Source: Acidaminococcus intestini DSM 21505 (GTDB lineage: Bacteria; Bacillota; Negativicutes; Acidaminococcales; Acidaminococcaceae). From it: a DNA stretch of 64,000 bases. This document shows positions 18,282 to 62,352 of the stretch, piece after piece; the first letter of the stretch is position 1; the number at the start of each line of letters is the position of its first letter. The notes beneath the pieces are model-generated. The model was not told where the DNA came from. It saw nothing but the letters and a program-made list of their open reading frames with translations, and searched no databases. The position numbers and the translations under genes are program-made. The stretch is taken from the NCBI RefSeq assembly GCF_000425045.1, contig NZ_AULA01000001.1, positions 62,001-126,000 on the forward strand. Reading direction: 5' to 3'.

Positions 18282-19631
18282 ATGGCTCAAGCAAAAACAA
18301 TGACAAAAGATATGACCCAGGGCAGCATTCCCAAACTGCTTCTTGAATTTGCCCTCCCCTTGATGGTGGGCAACATCTTTCAAATGCTCTACAATACGGT
18401 TGACTCCATTGTAGTGGGAAACTTCGTCGGGACAAACGCCCTGGCAGCCGTCAGCTCCACAACGATGGTCACAAATATGTCGGTCTTCTTCTTTAATGGA
18501 TTTTCCATCGGAGCCACCGTCATCATCGGGAAATATTTTGGTGCCGGCGACCATAAAAAGCTCCACCGTGCCGTAGAAACGACCATGGCAGCGACCTTTT
18601 TGCTCTGCCTGCTGTTTACGGCCTTCTTTCTTTCTGCCAATGATTTTATGCTCCGCTTCATGAAAACACCACCCGACATTTTTGGGGAAGCCTCCCTGTA
18701 TCTGAGAATCTACTTTGCCGGTGTGACAGGCCTGCTCCTTTATAACATGGGAAGCGGCGTTCTCCGCGCCGTGGGAGATACGAAACGACCCCTTTATTTC
18801 CTGGTCCTCACAAGCGTCCTCAACATCATCTTGGATCTTATTTTCGTGCTCCAGTTCCATATGGGCATTGCCGGCGTTGCCTATGCAACCATTCTTGCCC
18901 AATTCATTTCGGCCGCGGCGACCATGGCGGTCCTTATCCGTACGGATGACATCTACTGTTTCCGTCTTGGGGACCTCTGCCTTGATTGGGGCATTCTTAA
19001 GGAAATTTTCTGTGTAGGCCTTCCCGCCGCCATTCAAAGCGTCATCACCTCTTTTTCCAACATTTTTGTCCAGTCCTATATCAACTTTTTTGGTCCCACC
19101 ACCATGGCCGGATGGGGCTGCTACAACAAGATTGACCAGTTCGTCATGCTCCCCGTCCAGTCCATGGCCATGGCCTCCACCACCTTTGTGGCTCAAAACG
19201 TCGGTGCCCAAAAAGACAAGAGAGCCGATGAAGGCACCGTTTCTTCCATTATCCTGAGTCTTGGCATCGTTGGCGTCATAACAACTCTTCTCGTGCTCTT
19301 TGCCGATACGGCCCTGCGCCTTTTTACAAGCGACGAAGGCGTAATCCTGTCGGGAGTCGATTTTATCCACGTGAACCTCTTTTTCATGCTCTTTAACTGC
19401 GTGAACCAGGTCCTTGCCGGCGCCCTCCGCGGCCGCGGGGATTCAGTTGCGCCAATGGTCATCATGCTCTTTTCCTTTGTCCTCATCCGCCAGATTTACC
19501 TTTTTGTCATGAGCCGCTTTATCAGCAATACGCCTCTTACCATGGGTTTTGGCTACCCCGTGGGCTGGATGACCTGCTGCCTTCTTGAAGTGGCTTACTT
19601 CTATTTGTTCTGGAAACATCGGCCGCGGTAA
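18282..19631 (+). CDS. MATE-family multidrug/metabolite efflux pump
   Basis: Inner-membrane cation-coupled antiporter with twelve predicted helices in two halves. Typical starts of each half: GSIPKLLLEFALPLMVGNIF (about 11-30) and KEIFCVGLPAAIQSVITSFS (about 243-262), with MGSGVLRAVGDTKRPLYFLV at the end of the first half and AGALRGRGDSVAPMVIMLF in the second. 449 residues, full length. Monocistronic: it has its own promoter and is followed by a repeat-filled gap and a convergent operon. Substrate not predictable. Confidence 0.92.
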   Translation: MAQAKTMTKDMTQGSIPKLLLEFALPLMVGNIFQMLYNTVDSIVVGNFVGTNALAAVSSTTMVTNMSVFFFNGFSIGATVIIGKYFGAGDHKKLHRAVETTMAATFLLCLLFTAFFLSANDFMLRFMKTPPDIFGEASLYLRIYFAGVTGLLLYNMGSGVLRAVGDTKRPLYFLVLTSVLNIILDLIFVLQFHMGIAGVAYATILAQFISAAATMAVLIRTDDIYCFRLGDLCLDWGILKEIFCVGLPAAIQSVITSFSNIFVQSYINFFGPTTMAGWGCYNKIDQFVMLPVQSMAMASTTFVAQNVGAQKDKRADEGTVSSIILSLGIVGVITTLLVLFADTALRLFTSDEGVILSGVDFIHVNLFFMLFNCVNQVLAGALRGRGDSVAPMVIMLFSFVLIRQIYLFVMSRFISNTPLTMGFGYPVGWMTCCLLEVAYFYLFWKHRPR

Positions 19632-19656
19632 GGGGCCTTTTTTTTCTTTATTTTAC

Positions 19657-20180
19657 TCAGCCCAAAAAACAAGCTGATTTGATGAAGTACGTATGTCCAT
19701 TGCTTTGAGAAAGATTAATCTGAAGCAATGGGCTCATGGCCTCTCGTACAACAGTGCCCTTCACGGTTGGGGATAGCTATCGCCTGGGCGCTTTCTTTCC
19801 TAACCTTCCCTTTTTTTAGTCGCTGCAGAAATCGCGCCGAGTAAATGCAGTTACTTGCCATCCTTGCTTGAGAAATGATTCTTTTGAGAGCAAGGATGGC
19901 ATGACGATTCGCAAGAAATTACCTACCACAATCTCATATTAAAGTCGCCCGAAAGATGCCTTCGGCGAGCAAGCCACTTCTTGAAATTTTTTCGGATGAT
20001 CCAGGAAACCTTTTTCGCCTACGGCCCATATCGATCCATCTGCATTGTCAAACGCGGCAGGCTTCCTAGAAGTACCCAAATCTTGTACGACGTCATCAGC
20101 CTGCTTCGCGTTTTTCCTAGCATCCGGGCCAATCTGGAACCATATTTGAAAATGGTAAATGGAAAAAGGCAACGGCCTTG
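19657..20180 (+). repeat. Structured intergenic repeat, locus I (H-alpha' then H-alpha)
   Basis: The 620-base gap between the convergent MATE and ACT genes holds no gene. It contains a small hairpin (H, 19657-19677) with a partial alpha module (hairpin 19695-19733), then a second H (about 19819-19841) and a nearly complete alpha module (hairpin 19856-19901, conserved tail to about 20178). The tail shares long near-identical blocks with 51838-52174, for example TAGGAAAAACGCGAAGC on the minus strand near 20105-20121. Short open frames here are not conserved as protein in the other copies. Confidence 0.8.
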
Positions 20181-25360: not shown

Positions 25361-25505
25361 GTTGACTCAGCCCCAGAAAGTGGGCTGGGTTGAGGCAGTG
25401 TGTAAGGCCTTTGCGTAAAGAAAAGGCCTTGAGCAGACTCAAAGGCGCGGCGCCAAACTGCCCTCACCTTTCCCTTTTTATTTGGCGCACAAAATGCGCC
25501 GAGTC
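25361..25505 (+). repeat. Structured intergenic repeat, locus II (beta remnant and H)
   Basis: The gap between the rdgB promoter and the next operon's end has no gene. It carries two hairpins (TCAGCCC around 25367, AAGGCCTTT around 25405-25430), a beta-like GGCGCCAAACTG box near 25450, and an H hairpin TTGGCGCA/TGCGCCGA (25482-25502) preceded by a T run, as in the other copies. Confidence 0.6.
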
Positions 25506-25521
25506 AAAAGAAAGGGGCCGA

Positions 25522-41766: not shown

Positions 41767-42350
41767 TATTTTTTTGCTGGGTCTGCAAATTACGCCGAGT
41801 GGGTACATAGAAAGCCGCGTTCAAGCTGTCTATTGGCCGAATGGCTGTCCTGCATGCAAGGCTGCGGCTGTCGAGTAAAAAAAAACTAACGCTCTAGCTT
41901 TGATGCTGTGGTTCTTAAAGACCGTGAGGGAAACTAAAGGTCGAGCCGACACCAAAGCCCCCCTCCCCTTTTTACTCGGTGTGCAAATCGTGCCAATTTG
42001 ATGCAGTGACGCGCTCCCATTGCTTGAGAAAGATTCGTTCGATTGCAACGGGAGCATGCCGATTCGTAAGAAATCGCGTACTGCATTTTCATTCCTAAAT
42101 CGTCCGAAAAAGTGGAGTCCTTGGGCGAGCCCGTCTTGGTATTATTTCGTTTTCTTTAGAGGAAGCATGATTTGCCTGAGTCCCCTATTCAAAAAAAGGA
42201 ATTGAAAGAAAACGCGAAGGCTTTAACCAACCGCATTAGACAAGTAACTTACGTCGTCGATGAAAACATGAGCTCTTCGCAACGGGAACCATCTGATCGG
42301 AATTTGTAAAAAGCAAATGGAATAAAAGACCGGAAGGCAAAAACATGACA
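41767..42350 (+). repeat. Structured intergenic repeat, locus III (H, beta, H, alpha)
   Basis: The roughly 1 kb between secA and the hpf terminator has no convincing gene. It shows a weak H box (41771-41800), a beta module (GCTTTGATGCT near 41897, ACCGTGAGGGAAACT near 41920), a second H (41976-41997) and an alpha module whose main hairpin is 42013-42055 (GCTCCCATTGC/GCAACGGGAGC). A diverged tail runs to about 42350, where AAATGGAATAAAAGACCGGAAGG matches locus V. From 42350 to 42610 I see only degenerate sequence. Confidence 0.75.
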
Positions 42351-42616
42351 AAATGATTGCAAATCGTCTTGGTAAGTCGGATTGATGCCGCACATCGAGT
42401 ACAAAAGGAAAACACGAAAGCGGGACGATCTTGCCGCTATTGTGATTTCTATATTTCAAAAAGATTGTCTTCTTATAAAAGTCAAATACAATTCCAGAGC
42501 CCTAAACCGGGCATCAGCGTGGATCCAGTTTATGATTTCTCAGATTTGGCAGCGGATGTGAGGCGCCCCTTCTTCATCAATCCAGCCCGATTTTTGGGCT
42601 AGTTAAAACAGCTCCT

Positions 42617-42654: not shown

Positions 42655-43197
42655 TTAGACAAGTTCCGGATTGATGAGACCATAGTCACCGGCTTTACGG
42701 CGGTACACAACGGCCATGGATTCCGTTTCGTCATTGAAGAAGACGAAGAAGTCGTGGTTCAGCATGTTCATCTGCATGATGGCTTCCTGCACATTCATGG
42801 GGCGCATCGCATAGGTCTTGGTGCGAGCGACCTTGAATTCGCCGTCAGCCGAGGCCTCTTCAACATCACCAGAAACCGGCGGAACCGCGGCATCACGGAA
42901 ATTGTTGTATTTCCGCTTCATGAGACGGGTTTTATATTTATGGATCTGGCGCTCAATCTTTTCCACACAGTTATCAATGGAAGCATACATGTTTTCGCTG
43001 CCTTCCTGGGCGCGGAGAACGATGCCGCTTGCAGGAACCGTAATTTCCACAATGTGCTTATTGCGTTCAATTCTCATGACGGCCGTGATTTCACCAACGG
43101 TCTTGAACTGCTTCGTAATGGTTTCAACCTTTTTTTCCACATAATCTTTCAATGCAGGCGTTACTTCAAGATTCTTACCACGAACTCTAACTGTCAT
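42655..43197 (-). CDS. hpf: Ribosome hibernation promoting factor, long form
   Basis: 180 residues. The N-terminal S30AE domain (about 1-100, MTVRVRGKNLEVTPALKDYV) blocks the decoding centre; the C-terminal domain (about 120-180, VARTKTYAMRPMNVQEAIMQ and FFVFFNDETESMAVVYRRK) mediates 100S dimer formation. Long forms are typical of Firmicutes. GGAGGTAATC precedes the start. Single gene with a strong terminator. Confidence 0.95.
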   Translation of the reverse strand: MTVRVRGKNLEVTPALKDYVEKKVETITKQFKTVGEITAVMRIERNKHIVEITVPASGIVLRAQEGSENMYASIDNCVEKIERQIHKYKTRLMKRKYNNFRDAAVPPVSGDVEEASADGEFKVARTKTYAMRPMNVQEAIMQMNMLNHDFFVFFNDETESMAVVYRRKAGDYGLINPELV

Positions 43198-45734: not shown

Positions 45735-45930
45735 AAGATGACGAAGCGTTTCGAAATCACCTTGGTGAGGCGAATCGGTTTTCGCCGCCCTAAAGCAAAA
45801 AAACTGCGGCAACGGTTTGCTCATTCTGCATCAAGCCTTAATAAGAAGAGCGCACCGCTCTGAACGATTGACAGGTGTTCAGATCGGTGTTCTTTACGTT
45901 TTTCATTGATTGCCTTCCATAAGTTTTCAG
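45735..45930 (+). repeat. Structured intergenic repeat, locus IV (gamma hairpin)
   Basis: No gene lies between the terminators at 45686 and 45954. The gamma hairpin at 45848-45900 (GCACCGCTCTGAAC, loop GATTGACAG, GTTCAGATCGGTGT) matches 48741-48796 and 52358-52409, with changed but paired bases. A short stretch after it (TTTTTCATTGATTGCCTTCC) also resembles the others. Confidence 0.6.
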
Positions 45931-47622: not shown

Positions 47623-47839
47623 AAATATACAATTCAGCTGACCTGGTCTTCGCCCCCACACTCGCCTGCTGGAAGGTTCGCTCCTAAGCGTTCTGGCTCC
47701 CCACTACTGCTCCTCTCGCATTTTGCGGCAGGTCTTACTTCTAAGCTGCACCGTGCTCACAGCGGATTCCGCTGCTTACGTGGATCGTTTTGCCTGCAAC
47801 TGGCATCGACTTTCAACCACAGACCTGAATTGTATATTT
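47623..47839. repeat. Untranslated 217-base segment bounded by a 15-base perfect inverted repeat
   Basis: AAATATACAATTCAG (47623-47637) and its exact complement CTGAATTGTATATTT (47825-47839) flank 187 bases with no gene, between the divergent lipoprotein and HD-GYP genes. The flanks are AT-rich and the interior is C-rich (many CTCC and CCAC runs). Could be a small inverted-repeat element, or paired operator/promoter sites facing both genes. Confidence 0.55.
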
Positions 47840-48670: not shown

Positions 48671-48830
48671 AAATCGGCGATGGACTTACCGCCTTACCAA
48701 AGCGAAAGATTCGAAAGCAAAAGACCTAAAAAAAGATAACGAGAGCACTGCTCCGAACAATTGACACGCGTTCGGAGAGGTGCTCCCTTTTTATTGTTTA
48801 CCATTTTTCGTTTGACAGTCTCCCGGTCTT
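48671..48830 (+). repeat. Structured intergenic repeat, locus V' (delta and gamma)
   Basis: Downstream of the HD-GYP gene: AATCGGCGATGGACTTACCGCC (delta, 48671-48692), almost identical to 57439-57460, then the gamma hairpin 48741-48796 (GCTCCGAAC, AATTGACAC, GTTCGGAG) with a following T run, matching 52358-52409. It may act as a terminator for the HD-GYP gene. Confidence 0.7.
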
Positions 48831-50104: not shown

Positions 50105-50270
50105 TCAAGCGGGAAAGACGGAAAGTGCTTTGATGCTAAAAGACCGTAACGCCGGACCCAAACCGCCCCCTGACGGGGGAACGGGTCCGAAATAATTCGC
50201 CCTCAACCATGTTTCTCGGACTTTTGTTGACGCTCTCTTCTCATTATTCGGAGAAAAATCGCGCCGAACA
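50105..50270 (+). repeat. Structured intergenic repeat, locus VI (beta and H)
   Basis: Beta module with GCTTTGATGCTAAAAGACCGT, then a double hairpin 50153-50189: outer CGGACCC/GGGTCCG, inner CCCCC-TGA-CGGGGG, then AATTCGCCC. It ends in an H hairpin TTCGG/CCGAA (50247-50268) that lies inside the 3' end of the GNAT gene. Same order as at 61749-61907. Confidence 0.75.
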
Positions 50271-50876: not shown

Positions 50877-51491
50877 ATGGCAAACTTTTGTCCTCAGTGC
50901 GGCGCTCCCCTGACGCCGACAAGTAAATTCTGCCCCCAGTGCGGCGCAAAGATTGCTGCCGCCGTGCTCCAAGAAGCAGCGCTGAACGCGGACGCCCGTC
51001 AGGAAGCAGCCACAGCACATACGGCAGAGGAACAAGCACCTGTACAGCAGCCGGTTACGGAAACATCAAAAGAGGAATCCGTTTCTCCTCATTTTACCAC
51101 ACCGCAGTCCCCCCAGAAGCCCAAAAATGCGGAAGATTATCTGCAAATGCTGCGCGCCGACCTCACCATTGAAGGCCGCCTCAACCGCAAGCGCTATTGG
51201 GTCCGTACGGGGCTGTGCATTGTGCTCAACATCATGGCGGCCATCTTCATGGAGATTCCCGCAGAGCTTCCCATCTTTTTTGGAGCCATCCTGACCATCG
51301 CTGTTTCGATCTACCAAATCATGTTCACTGTGCGCCGTGCCCATGATCTCGGAAGATCCGGCTGGTATCTCCTTTGGAGCATCGTTCCCCTCGTCAACAT
51401 TTATATTGCAATCCGTATCTCCTTCATTGAAGGCGAAAAAGGGCCAAATCGGTTCGGGCCGGATCCGCTCACCACGCCGGGGGCGTGGTGA
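50877..51491 (+). CDS. Zinc-ribbon DUF805 membrane protein
   Basis: 204 residues. Two CPQCGA knuckles (FCPQCGAPLT and FCPQCGAKIA, residues 4-26) form a zinc ribbon, followed by a Gln/Glu/Pro-rich linker (about 30-85) and a DUF805 domain with four helices (LNRKRYWVRTGLCIVLNIMA, then VRRAHDLGRSGWYLLWSIVP). GPNRFGPDPL near the end is a common DUF805 tail. Function unknown; likely a membrane-bound protein with a cytosolic zinc ribbon. Confidence 0.87.
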   Translation: MANFCPQCGAPLTPTSKFCPQCGAKIAAAVLQEAALNADARQEAATAHTAEEQAPVQQPVTETSKEESVSPHFTTPQSPQKPKNAEDYLQMLRADLTIEGRLNRKRYWVRTGLCIVLNIMAAIFMEIPAELPIFFGAILTIAVSIYQIMFTVRRAHDLGRSGWYLLWSIVPLVNIYIAIRISFIEGEKGPNRFGPDPLTTPGAW

Positions 51492-51494
51492 GAA

Positions 51495-51526
51495 TAACAA
51501 CGCAAGCGTGAGCTTGCGTTATTTTT
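51495..51526 (+). terminator. Terminator after the DUF805 gene
   Basis: AACGCAAGC, loop GTGA, GCTTGCGTT, then ATTTTT. Confidence 0.88.
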
Positions 51527-51552
51527 GGTTTGGGAAAGACTGTCTCTCTAAT

Positions 51553-52440
51553 TTTTTACTCGAGGCAAAAAATTGCTCCGATTCATCATGGTTGTAAGTT
51601 TTGCGTTGTGAGTTTTGAGTAAAAACCCCTAAAAAGCCCCAACTCCGGCGCCAAACCGTGTCCCTGCGTGACTCGGCGCCGAACAAGTTTTTCGATAATA
51701 CAGTCCTGCAACCGAATCGCTTCAACGATGTCTTGCGATTAGCAGTTTTGGCCCATCGAAAAAATGCTCCTTGCTCCCGCTCGTTTGGAGACGTCGGGCC
51801 CCTTACTTTTTACTCGGAGCAAAAATCGCTCCGAGTCGATGCAGTTACGTGCCTTCCTTGTTTGAGAAAAGATTCTTTTGAAAATAAGGAAGGCATGACG
51901 ATTCGTAAGAAGTGGTGTACCACAATTTCATTCCTAAGACGCCCGAAAAAATACCGTCGTCGGGCGGGCCGCTCCTAGGAATTTTTTCGGATGACAGAAG
52001 AAACCTTTCTCGCCTACGGTCCCTATCGACCCATCCGCGTTGTCAAATGCGGCGAGCCTCCTAGCAGAAACCCACTTCTAGTACGGCGTCGTCGGCCCGC
52101 TTCGCGTTTTTCCTAGCATCTGGGCTAATCTGGAGCCATATTCGAAAAAGGCAAATGGGAAAAAGACCGGAAGGGAAAACGTAACGTTGCTTCCTAAATC
52201 GTCCTAGCTGGCGGCGGATTGCCGCTATGCGGCAAATGTGTTGTAGAGGCCACGTTTCTTATCGATGAAAAACATTTCAAAGGCGTTTTTAAGGCAAAAG
52301 ACCAAACGGCGACGGTTCGATGCATCCTGCATCGAGCCTAAAGAAACTGTGCGTAATGAGAACACCGCTCCGAACAATTGACACGCGTTCGGAGCGGTGC
52401 TCTTTTTTTATTGCTTTCTCTTTTTCGTGTGGCAGTCCTT
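51553..52440 (+). repeat. Structured intergenic repeat, locus V: longest composite (H, beta, H, alpha, gamma)
   Basis: The 1 kb between the convergent DUF805 gene and the autotransporter remnant has no gene. In order: H (51560-51581), beta-like GGCGCCAAACCG (near 51647), H ACTCGGAGC/GCTCCGAGT (51812-51836), alpha with main hairpin 51850-51895 and conserved tail to about 52174, a divergent stretch, then gamma 52358-52409. This is the fullest copy and the best reference for the family. Confidence 0.8.
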
Positions 52441-52533: not shown

Positions 52534-54467
52534 TCATTTCATTTTCTGCTGCAATTCTGCAACAATCTTCATGAATTCCTGGATCTTTTGGTCCAGGAGG
52601 GTGTCGTTGCATTTCAGTTCTTCGTTTTCGGCAATGAGCTGGGCTTTGCTGACGCCTTCGTACTGACTGGTGCAGCCGAGTTTGACGGAGACGCCGAAGT
52701 TCCACATGTTTTCGCCGCCCGTCGATCCGCCGAGGCTCAGTAAGGTGCGGTTATCAGGCCGATAGAAGGCACCGATGGCAAGGGCCGTGTTGCCGCGGCA
52801 GCTGCCGGTACCAACGGCAAGGTCAAGTTTGTTGCCCCGATCAAAGTCAAGGGGATAGAAGGCTGCAAGGGCTGCGGCATGAGCGCCGACTTTATCGACG
52901 CGGTCATCAAGGCGTTCGACGCGGCTGCTGACGTCACGAACTTCTTTGGTCGCTTCATAGAGCTGACTGCCGTTGATGGCCTCTTTCGAAGTCGGGCTCA
53001 CTTCCCCATCGGTGACGTTCGTGATCTTGTTGTGATTCATATCGATGCCGGGGTTGGAAATGGTCGGTCCGCCGTTCTTGATGCTGACTTTGCTGACGCT
53101 GATGTTGCCTTTGAGGGCGACGTTGACATTGCTGTCGGGCCGTTGCAATATTTTCGCTTCTTATAATGCCAAGCTTGCCGTCTTTTTCAAGTTTCGTTTC
53201 GCCTTTGTCGTCAGCTGTGAGTTTCGTTTCAATGGCAGCGGGTATGCCGGCATCGACGGCCTTTCCCGTATCGTTGATATCCGTGCCAGTGCTGCCCGCA
53301 TCGGCATTCCCCGTATCGGTATTACCCGTTTCAGTGCCGCCTGCATCCGGTACTGCCGTATTGTCGTTCTTCTCTTCGTAGGTGACTTTGTCGGAACCGG
53401 AATCCTTATAGTTCGTGCTGATGGTCCAGTTGCCGCTGCCATCGTTTTCGAGTTTGATGCCATCACCTGCTTTGAGGCTGATGGACGTACCAGCCATTTC
53501 CGTAGCGGCTGTGAGCTGGGCCACGTTGACGGCGTCCGTATCGGCAGAACCGGCGGCGACATAGGTAATGCGGCGCGTGTTGATCTTTCCGTTGGCATCG
53601 GGGCCACCGACGAAGACGGCGGCTAAGGTCGGTTTCCAGACGTAGCTCGTGTCTGTGGCTGTGACGCGCAGAAGAGGATGATTTACTTTGGTATTGTCGC
53701 CGTCGACAGCATTTTTCACCGTATTCTTGCTGCCCAGGACATAGATGTGCTAGCCATTTGTGACCGTATTATAGAACCCGTCGACGAAGTTCATCTGTGT
53801 GGCGCTGTCATTGAGTTCATTCGTGTTCCCCGCGAGAATGTTGCCAACGCCCATGACCTACGACAGATAGCCTTTATCGACTGTATTGGCCCCACCCATG
53901 ACCATAACCTGGCCGCCGCTTTCGAGAATGGCTTTTGCAGGAGCTGGGACAATTCATCCCATTTTCCTGCTTGGGCAAGGACAGGCGCTTGTCTTAGAAT
54001 TTCATCGCTGCCCTTGACATCGCGATAGGAATTGGTGACCCTGTTCGCGGCACCGTAGATCAGGGCTAAATTGGCGTTTTCTGTATAGTTGACCTGCCCC
54101 ACAATGGAACTTCCGCGCCATCAAAGGGATTGCCCCTTAACTTGACGCCGTTGAGGCTTCCCATGATGACAACGGTGGGCGCCTTTTCTGCATTGCCATC
54201 TCCCGTAATTTGGACAGGCTGCCCATCTGGGCTAAGCAAGAAGCAAGGTCCGGCAATGGGATGTGTCAGATCCGACGTAACCAGCATCGTTGGCGTTGCT
54301 ACATAGGCCGGCAAGGCCGCCCCGCCAAGGATCATACCCAGCACGGCCGCCGTCAGGATGCGTACCAACTTTTGAGCCGCCACTTTGCCCCGCCCTTTGG
54401 CAAGTTCGAAAACAACGACATAGCCATTTTGAACGAGACTCCAGATGATTTTGCAGATTCGGTTCAT
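52534..54467 (-). pseudogene. YadA-like trimeric autotransporter adhesin, disrupted
   Basis: Surface adhesin remnant on the minus strand. An ESPR-type leader (MNRICKIIWSLVQNGYVVVF, from 54467) and signal end lead into a YadA-type head with GxxNxV repeats, a stalk with AAGSADTDAVNVAQL, the neck GSQLYEATKEV, and a C-terminal YadA anchor (SLGGSTGGENMWNFGVSVKL) with a short extra coiled coil. The frame breaks three times (near 54105, 53975 and 53155) and has in-frame TAG codons at 53858-53860 and 53750-53752. All parts are colinear, so it is one gene in decay rather than several genes. It shows that the lineage has an outer membrane. Confidence 0.88.
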
Positions 54468-56567: not shown

Positions 56568-57044
56568 GTGATTCGATCCATGCGCCGCTTCAAACAGGCT
56601 CTCCCCCTTGATGCCTGTAAGGAAGTCCTCAAAAACGGCAGACGAGGCGTCCTTTCTGTCATCGGTGATGACGGCTATCCCTATGGCGTTCCCATCAACT
56701 ACGTCTATGATGAAAAAGAAAATGCCCTCTATTTCCATGGTGCCAAAGAAGGTCATAAGATTGACGCCATAAAAAAGAGCGGCAAAGTATGCTTTACTGT
56801 TTTTGACGAAGACTATAAAGAAGATGGCGACTGGGCGTACTACGTCAAGAGCGTCATCGTCTTTGGCCGCGCAAAGGTTGTCGAGGACGAAAAAGAAACC
56901 CTGCGCATGACTCGCCTCATTGGCCTCAAGTACTACCCTACCGTCAAAGAAGTGGACGCCATCTTGGAACGCACCCGCGGCCGCGTGCAGGGCGTGCGGG
57001 TTGACGTAGAAAAGATGACGGGAAAGCTGGTACATGAGAAGTAA
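56568..57044 (+). CDS. Pyridoxamine 5'-phosphate oxidase-like flavoprotein (NimA-related)
   Basis: About 158 residues, split-barrel FMN-binding protein: GRRGVLSVIGDDGYPYGVPI, then ALYFHGAKEGHKIDAIKKSG and VCFTVFDEDY are usual for the Nim/PNPOx-like group. Some members reduce 5-nitroimidazoles, but most have unknown roles, so I do not claim resistance. I chose GTG 56568: AAGGAG lies 9 bases upstream, whereas the ATG at 56559 abuts it. Confidence 0.87.
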   Translation: MIRSMRRFKQALPLDACKEVLKNGRRGVLSVIGDDGYPYGVPINYVYDEKENALYFHGAKEGHKIDAIKKSGKVCFTVFDEDYKEDGDWAYYVKSVIVFGRAKVVEDEKETLRMTRLIGLKYYPTVKEVDAILERTRGRVQGVRVDVEKMTGKLVHEK

Positions 57045-57045
57045 T

Positions 57046-57590
57046 TTTTAGCCAGCGCAAAATTTACGCTGGCTAAAAGAATGGAAAGGCTGTCTCGCGC
57101 CTTCGGTGCATGTCATCAAGCGAGAAAGACGAAAACGCTTTGATGCTAAACCGTGAGGGAAAAACTGTGAGACCGGGCGCCAAACCGGTCTCCTCATCCA
57201 CCACCTACTCCTACAAACAAGTTTGCTAGTTACACCCCTACTAAGAAAGTCTATTCGAAACTTCGTCGTACACGAACACGTATCCGCTGCTTTTAGCATC
57301 TGCCTGATACTACGTTAGGCGGATGTAAGAGATAAAAGAGCTCTGTGTTCCGCAGTCTTACATTGGAGCGTTCCCTGGATAAGTCCTCTGCACGATTTCT
57401 CGCTTCGCCGTTTTAGTACATTTTACGGCTTGCAAATCAATCGGCGATAGACTTACCGCCTTGGCAATATGGGACGGCTTTCGCCGTTTCCAAGTCAGAA
57501 TATTGTAAGGTAAAAAACCAAGAGCCCAAAACCGAACGTAGACAGAGGTTCGGTTTTGGGCTCTTGGTTTTTATTTGGATTTTGTAAGAG
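57046..57590 (+). repeat. Structured intergenic repeat, locus VII (H, beta, delta, gamma-like)
   Basis: Right after the NimA-like stop: H hairpin TTAGCCAGCG/CGCTGGCTAA (57048-57076), beta (GCTTTGATGCTAAACCGTGAGGG near 57140 and hairpin GAGACCGG/CCGGTCTC near 57160-57185), a stretch of unrecognised sequence, delta (57439-57462), and a perfect 20-base hairpin with T run (57516-57572) in the gamma position. No gene. Confidence 0.7.
57512..57572. terminator. Strong hairpin terminator in repeat locus VII
   Basis: CCAAGAGCCCAAAACCGAAC pairs perfectly with GTTCGGTTTTGGGCTCTTGG, loop GTAGACAGAG; A and T runs flank both sides, so it may work in both directions. Confidence 0.85.
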
Positions 57591-57797
57591 GCGGGTTCTT
57601 TGAAATGGAAAGATCACGACAGCATCTGGTAGACCTGCGTTCACATTTTTCCTCTGAGTTCAACTCGTAGAGTCGATCCGCCTTTGCCAAGGCGGGGAAC
57701 CGAAAGGGTAGATGAAGATGCGCAGCAACGTTTCCTTGCAAACGTGAGGACCGCCCGAATCCCAAGCCCGCTTTGCAGCGCCAGCGGGAGGACGATG

Positions 57798-57882
57798 GAA
57801 TACGTCTCCGGGCGAATCATTTGTCCCCTTCCCCCGTTAGGGGGGCGGTTTGGGTCCGCGCCTTCCGGTCTTTATGCTGACC
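57798..57882 (-). repeat. Inverted beta module
   Basis: On the minus strand this reads GCATAAAGACCGG, GCGGACCCAAACCG, CCCCCTAACGGGGG and ATTCGCCCGGA, matching the plus-strand beta copies near 50150 and 61795. It is the only clear copy in opposite orientation. Confidence 0.75.
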
Positions 57883-61748: not shown

Positions 61749-61907
61749 CCGGGTCTTTGATCTTTCAAGACCTTGGGAAGCGGCTGGAGGATGCGGACCC
61801 AAACCGACCCTGACGGGAGAACGGGTCTGAAAAGATTTGCCCGGAAACATGTTCTTCGGCTTTCTGCGGGTGCGCCCTTCTTATCATCGGAGCAATCTTT
61901 GCTCCGA
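61749..61907 (+). repeat. Structured intergenic repeat, locus VIII (beta and H)
   Basis: GGTCTTTGAT box, then CGGACCC (61794-61800), inner CCC-TGA-CGGG, CGGGTCTG (61822-61829), GATTTGCCCGGAAACATGTTCTTCGG, and an H hairpin TCGGAGCAA/TTGCTCCGA (61887-61907). It abuts the stop of the convergent reductase gene. Order and spacing match locus VI. Confidence 0.75.
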
Positions 61908-61908
61908 C

Positions 61909-62352
61909 TTATTTAAATAGCGCCCGCGCTTCCCCCTCCGTCGTCGCCATACCGCCCCAGGAAAGGCCATAGAGCTTAGCAAAGCGCTGCATGGTGAATT
62001 TGCCTGCGTCGAGCATCCATTGTTCCGGCGCCGCACCCTGGAAGAGGAAGTACAGGGTCTTGCCACGCAGGCTGCCGCTTGCAGCGGGGCCGTAGAAGCG
62101 ATCCAAGAGGGTGCGCACGCTGCCGCAGATGTTATGCCAATAAAGCGGCGAACCGATGACAATGGTATCGGCGGCTTTGATCTTTGCCATGACTTCATCA
62201 AATTGATCGCCGGCAAGGCGCTGGCCATAGACGTTGATGCGATAATCCGTCAGGTTCAGGGTTTCATAGTCACGGCTCCCCAGCAGGGCCGCTGCAAGGC
62301 GTGCCGTGTTGCCTTTTTTGTTAGGACTGCCGTTAATAAATAAAATGCTCAT
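61909..62352 (-). CDS. Flavodoxin-like NAD(P)H-dependent oxidoreductase
   Basis: 147 residues. MSILFINGSPNKKGNTARLA is the FMN phosphate-binding loop; IVIGSPLYWHNICGSVRTLL and LDRFYG are common to NADPH-dependent FMN reductases. The stop codon directly abuts an H repeat hairpin. It begins 5 bases after the SDR stop at 62358, so it is co-transcribed with that gene. Confidence 0.9.
   Translation of the reverse strand: MSILFINGSPNKKGNTARLAAALLGSRDYETLNLTDYRINVYGQRLAGDQFDEVMAKIKAADTIVIGSPLYWHNICGSVRTLLDRFYGPAASGSLRGKTLYFLFQGAAPEQWMLDAGKFTMQRFAKLYGLSWGGMATTEGEARALFK

Follow-up and report, generated by a model that had tools for sequence, protein, structure and literature searches.

The attC sites of integron cassettes are hairpins that are conserved in structure and lie directly after stop codons, and PATEs and IS200-IS605 derivatives are non-autonomous elements that end in hairpins. 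Published REPs are tagged sequences of 20–40 bp that lie downstream of genes and can supply their stop codons; REPs of the GTAG kind have RAYTs, and the stop that they supply is often TAG (PMC3733652). The MIRU elements of mycobacteria insert at start codons (PMC12548453). The repeats described here would resemble MIRUs as mobile repeats that sit at a codon boundary and do little harm, although MIRUs carry a small coupled ORF, whereas the repeats are non-coding hairpins at stop codons. We analyzed a window of 64,000 nt, which is the whole stretch of DNA under study, from an Acidaminococcus genome (G000; 2.28 Mb in 55 contigs). The repeats are a real, mosaic, non-coding and dispersed family, the hairpin core of which is found across the Negativicutes and is docked at stop codons. 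An earlier note on this DNA had described the repeats but missed that their blocks abut stop codons and that one block, the delta hairpin, extends beyond the source genome.

Self-comparison of the window confirmed the claim of that note that a series of gene-free gaps share blocks of sequence, and the similarity was far beyond chance. The best pair, 51800–52163 and 19808–20167, matched over 364 bp (80%, E 3.6e-90), and 51806–51989 matched 41968–42149 (73%, E 2.5e-23). The gamma hairpin was matched by 48737–48820 (86%, E 3e-23) and 45807–45895 (72%, E 2e-9), and a beta-like block was common to 50139–50224, 57810–57873 and 61794–61863 (78–85%, E down to 6e-13). The gap at 25.4–25.5 kb, which the note had included, is a weak member of the series, carrying just a degenerate H1 hairpin (25475–25506, plus strand; H1 profile E 6e-4 in the fetched set). 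The note had also proposed that 51553–52440 be run against its own genome, and a query of 51540–52440 gave 60 dispersed matches on many contigs, that is, at least 60 copies in G000. Profiles of the individual modules gave 39 matches for beta, 56 for H-alpha, 39 for delta, 24 for mid and 10 for gamma at the sampled G000 loci, counts that exceed the number of copies since the palindromic gamma and H2 hairpins cause profile matches on both strands at some loci. No reading frame was conserved between copies, which supports the description of the unit as non-coding and rejects a coding origin of the repeats.

A search of Rfam with the window and its relatives returned only unrelated or sub-threshold matches and none of relevance to the repeats, in line with the suggestion that they belong to no known family. 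Neither membership of a known Rfam family nor chance-level similarity between the loci, two of the outcomes that the earlier note had set against itself, was found. The phage and plasmid collections gave no match by blastn. In viral contigs, patterns of 14–17 nt gave only chance-level matches, and a check of 80 loci with the delta model (R2) revealed no hairpin. An exact pattern had no match in named genomes, a set from which records close to the window may be missing. A literature search, which was not exhaustive, found no description of the family. The window also holds a known structured RNA that is unrelated to the repeats, the raiA RNA at 47629–47833 on the minus strand (Rfam RF03072, 198 bits).

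The locus at 51553–52440 follows a DUF805 gene (50877–51491; Pfam), which has its own ordinary intrinsic terminator, an inverted repeat with a T run, at 51493–51526 on the plus strand. The mosaic lies on the same strand and has a degenerate H1 hairpin at its left end (51552–51584; H1 profile E 6e-4). The beta module (51642–51796; profile) contains hairpins around GGCGCCAAACCG...GGCGCCGAATT. The H unit (51807–51925; model R1 126 bits, E 5e-33; covariation) consists of the H1 hairpin (ACTCGGAGC-GCTCCGAGT) and the H2 hairpin, and the alpha segment (51926–52000; profile and alignment) joins it to delta (52011–52144; R2 71 bits, E 2e-18; covariation), a long, imperfect hairpin whose CATCTGC...GCATCTG internal loops are conserved, and the module that is found Negativicutes-wide. 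The mid module (52210–52345; profile), which usually adjoins beta, is here parted from it by H-alpha-delta. The gamma hairpin (52356–52416), which carries a T run and resembles an intrinsic terminator, has profile matches at 48739, at 45846 and in L054. The locus is best read as an H-alpha-delta string located between beta and mid, which would be the two halves of another module. Nearby, two overlapping ORFs on the minus strand (52534–53148 and 52955–53719) both match trimeric autotransporter (YadA) domains, which suggests that one YadA-type gene has been split by a frameshift.

The constant order beta-H-alpha-delta-gamma given in the earlier note did not hold in general, and the module maps showed a shuffled mosaic instead. 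Two strings are common, H-alpha-delta and beta-mid, and they occur in both orientations and also in tandem. Beta lies 3′ of delta in L034, L042 and L050 and is often on the strand opposite to delta, and H units are also found alone or in tandem. Within the window, an H unit of the CAGCCC type lies 18 nt past the stop of a MATE-like gene (18282–19631) at 19650–19766 (R1 84 bits), followed by a second, tandem H unit (19813–19931; R1 110 bits) and a delta hairpin (20016–20148; R2 82 bits, E 2e-21), all on the plus strand. Further along are an H unit (41969–42086, plus; R1 93 bits), the 3′ half of a delta (42250–42340, plus; profile 57 bits) and an inverted H unit (42530–42609, minus; R1 30 bits), the last of these 45 nt past the stop of a ribosome-hibernation-factor gene (42655–43197). 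Profile matches on the plus strand comprise gamma hairpins at 45846–45904 and 48739–48799 and beta-like blocks at 50148–50222 (29 bits) and 61794–61884 (27 bits), and a beta module on the minus strand (57728–57863; profile) is accompanied by mid at 57646–57705. A weak H unit is located at the stop codon of gene 56580–57044 (57045–57118, plus; R1 17 bits, E 0.03), and another overlaps the stop of gene 61909–62352 (61850–61914, minus; H1 E 0.002, R1 E 0.03). The orthologue of the latter gene in the sister species G007 (L239) also has an H unit.

The repeats, which the earlier note had called structured, showed strong compensatory covariation in two modules, the H unit and delta. The H unit is 118 nt long and forms two hairpins, the first of which, H1, is about 35 bp by itself and is preceded by TTTTTAC or TTTTTAG. 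In 37 units from G000 and G007, 91.6% of the pairs over the two helices were standard, and the covariation score was 0.501, compared with 0.165 for shuffled and at most 0.131 for slid alignments. Delta is an imperfect hairpin of 110–170 nt. Its core was 87.6% paired with a score of 0.523 versus 0.207 in 20 copies from G000 and a further genome, G005, and 37 diverse copies from other species and genera, in an alignment that had been fitted to the model, were 91.0% paired with a score of 0.344 versus 0.119. Single delta copies fold as long hairpins in which the internal loops ATA/TCT and CATCTGCTTTGTC/TTCGCGCATCTG recur; the folding energies of the most stable ones are about −70 to −99 kcal/mol. 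In some deltas of G005 (L267, L306) the 5′ part contains another conserved segment, GTGCCAGTTACGCTGTGTCGACAATTCC..., possibly a nested insertion.

To locate the repeats relative to genes, we measured the distance of H-unit starts from genes that a simple script had predicted by codon usage and compared the counts with those expected from uniform placement of H units within gaps. In G000, 41 first H units had an upstream gene on the same strand, and 24 of them started at −30 to +18 nt from its stop codon, where 3.2 were expected and the maximum in 20,000 draws was 12. The H units of G007 were at a stop codon in 16 of 19 cases (1.6 expected), as were those of G005 (3/3). Near gene starts, the corresponding counts were 1 of 20 and 0 of 8. 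Outside G000, 46 of the 61 sampled deltas had a long ORF on their 5′ side whose stop lay no more than 25 nt from the start of the hairpin; on the 3′ side this was so for 13 of 48. The arrangement in Acidaminococcus includes an additional H unit between the stop codon and delta, and the elements of G000 also contain shuffled beta, mid and gamma modules. The copies sometimes supply the stop codon of the gene: in L255, L249, L057 and L262 the frame of the gene enters H1 and ends there (e.g. ...KNRSDLM*). The host genes are unrelated. In G001, G003, G004 and G008, which we take to be the A. fermentans group, with G001 probably A. fermentans itself, deltas cluster within about 20 kb (L354–L358) and often follow GCTRACGCATAA, a sequence through which host proteins can acquire ANA* or ADA* as their C-terminal tail. 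Several elements of G005 and G007 (L171, L175, L313, L226) lie 3′ of autotransporter-like genes ending in F*, including neighboring paralogues.

The two structured modules differ in breadth. The H-unit model gave at least 61 matches in G000, 29 in G007, 3 in G005 and a marginal one in G003, and no match in the rest of the 59 Acidaminococcaceae genomes. The delta model, the E-values of which are rough because its calibration was short, matched 23 of these 59 genomes in 7 genera, with 55 matches in G005; within Acidaminococcus, these searches gave no delta in G002 and G006. Among 380 Negativicutes genomes it matched 87, which represent 38 genera, with at most 9 matches scored per genome, and delta is present in several copies in many Negativicutes. 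In a sample of the phylum it matched 19 of 398 genomes, with one further genus accounting for about a third of these. Similar hairpins may also occur in Desulfobacterota. The conserved loops were visible in most of the distant delta matches shown. Many of the fetched contigs of G007 end a few hundred bases from an H unit (L224–L243), which suggests that the repeats probably break the G007 assembly and that copy numbers in that genome are underestimated.

Comparison of host genes showed that the element sits after different genes in different species. In the main set, the 29 host genes of G000 and the 18 of G007 had no orthologue in common; one additional common host gene, 61909–62352, enters by way of its weak H unit. 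The comparison covered about 40% of the G005 genome, which contained orthologues of 22 host genes (17 of G000 and 5 of G007). Of these, 21 were without an element after the stop, and in several of them an ordinary terminator, or else the neighboring gene, comes next. The single occupied orthologue corresponds to the L224 gene and has the G005 version of the element. Empty sites were found only in other species, in which the sequence outside the gene is too diverged for a target-site duplication to be recognized. Within the A. fermentans group, two to four species carry the element after the same host gene in four cases, one of them guaA. At these common sites the hairpins are 68–98% identical, the next 200 nt 45–61% (global alignment) and the fourfold sites of the genes 59–97%. 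An insertion can therefore persist for a long time in well-preserved form, and the elements may serve a function in place and bring some benefit.

On balance, we favor the reading that the repeats are non-autonomous, dispersed DNA-hairpin elements, REP/BIME-like, with gene 3′ ends as their docking sites. A recombinase of the host, or one acting in trans, would recognize the hairpin as folded DNA, either single-stranded or cruciform, and insert it beside a stop codon, where it would be harmless and still be transcribed to a terminator. In quasi-palindrome correction, one arm of a hairpin is copied from the other. Such arm-to-arm copying, together with selection on transposing copies, could keep the arms matched. 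Against this reading, no mobilizing enzyme was found: neither Y1 transposase nor reverse transcriptase tracks the element, the latter being absent from the element-bearing G001, G003 and G007, and no integron integrase scored above the cut-off. Nor was a target-site duplication, or an insertion that differs between strains of one species, observed. Also against it are the sites common to two to four species, at which the hairpins are much more conserved than the sequence 3′ of them, as a function in place could explain, and the slightly better folding of the H unit on the sense strand.

Alternatively, the repeats could form structured RNAs on the sense strand, within 3′ untranslated regions, where they would stabilize or terminate mRNA and be kept by selection on the RNA, a reading to which we assign a rather low probability. 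The docked copies always lie on the strand of the gene directly 3′ of the stop codon, the first hairpin in G005 has a T run like that of an intrinsic terminator, and the strong covariation and the survival of the hairpins beyond the downstream DNA at common sites would also agree with it. However, covariation alone is no proof of RNA, and the stems showed no tolerance of G-U over A-C such as a sense RNA would have. Among non-Watson-Crick cells, G-U and A-C numbered 29 versus 30 in A1 (one consensus G-U pair left out) and 17 versus 18 in A4 (one consensus A-C position left out); in A3 the numbers were 14 versus 34 (p 0.006), which favors the opposite strand. In a larger set of H units there were 126 G-U, 58 of them at the single consensus G-U pair, versus 55 A-C. 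Delta was more stable on the strand opposite the gene, by 7.0 ± 1.3 kcal/mol and in 59 of 76 copies, and the module therefore looks like a DNA-level hairpin. The H unit was more stable on the sense strand, by 3.1, and so could act as a terminator-like RNA. Because G-U is not more common than A-C and the opposite strand folds better, selection on sense RNA is not supported, and the difference in host genes between species argues in the same direction. The structured RNA offered in the earlier note is thus not favored; the G-U test points to DNA.

We consider it unlikely that the repeats are attC-like recombination sites, that is, single-stranded hairpins folded 3′ of stop codons and used by a tyrosine recombinase. 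Conservation of structure over sequence, the position directly 3′ of the stop and the better folding of the opposite strand are what such sites would show, but none of 59 genomes had an integron integrase (TIGR02249) above the cut-off, with scores at the XerC/D level only, the attC end motif was not recognized by eye, and the elements, scattered 3′ of guaA and other housekeeping genes, form no cassette arrays. It is similarly improbable that the repeats are MITEs that an insertion sequence left behind, in which H1 would be the terminal inverted repeat. Inverted H1 occurs at both ends in L053, L058 and 41.97–42.61 kb, and these few copies are the only hint of the MITE-like character mentioned in the earlier note; most copies lack the second end, and no full-length partner with H1 ends was found. 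An IS200/IS605 origin was rejected: G000 has one broken copy, the ends of which, like those of its relatives in the genus, do not match H1, and the elements differ in this from PATEs and IS200-IS605 derivatives. The transposase of this copy (L086, C6:46046–46315) is interrupted by an in-frame stop and lies within a decayed mobile region. Movement of the repeats by a RAYT transposase, as REPs or REPINs, is very improbable and largely refuted: as extragenic palindromes near stop codons, some of which they supply (GTAG REPs often give TAG; PMC3733652), they resemble REPs, but H1 and the base of delta carry no GTAG or CGTC tag, the units are 110–170 nt instead of 20–40, no RAYT was found, and the sole Y1 gene of G000 is the broken IS200-like one. 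The REP/BIME-like character proposed in the earlier note did find support in the organization of the repeats, which, like BIMEs, are an extragenic, dispersed mosaic of palindromic modules, clustered and mostly 3′ of genes, although they differ in having no G-U excess and in being Negativicutes-wide.

If the repeats are mobile DNA hairpins, as we favor, they may, more tentatively, represent a Negativicutes-wide class of single-strand-foldable hairpins for which the stop codon is the insertion address, moved by a recombinase that would read the folded strand opposite the gene, and distinct from REP/RAYT systems, IS200 derivatives and integrons. The intergenic "junk" of one Acidaminococcus genome holds a hairpin family that is spread over at least 38 genera of Negativicutes. 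Mobility of the family would require an enzyme that recognizes either the end of the gene or the hairpin; if the family is functional in place, it would constitute a large unrecognized class of gene-end structures.
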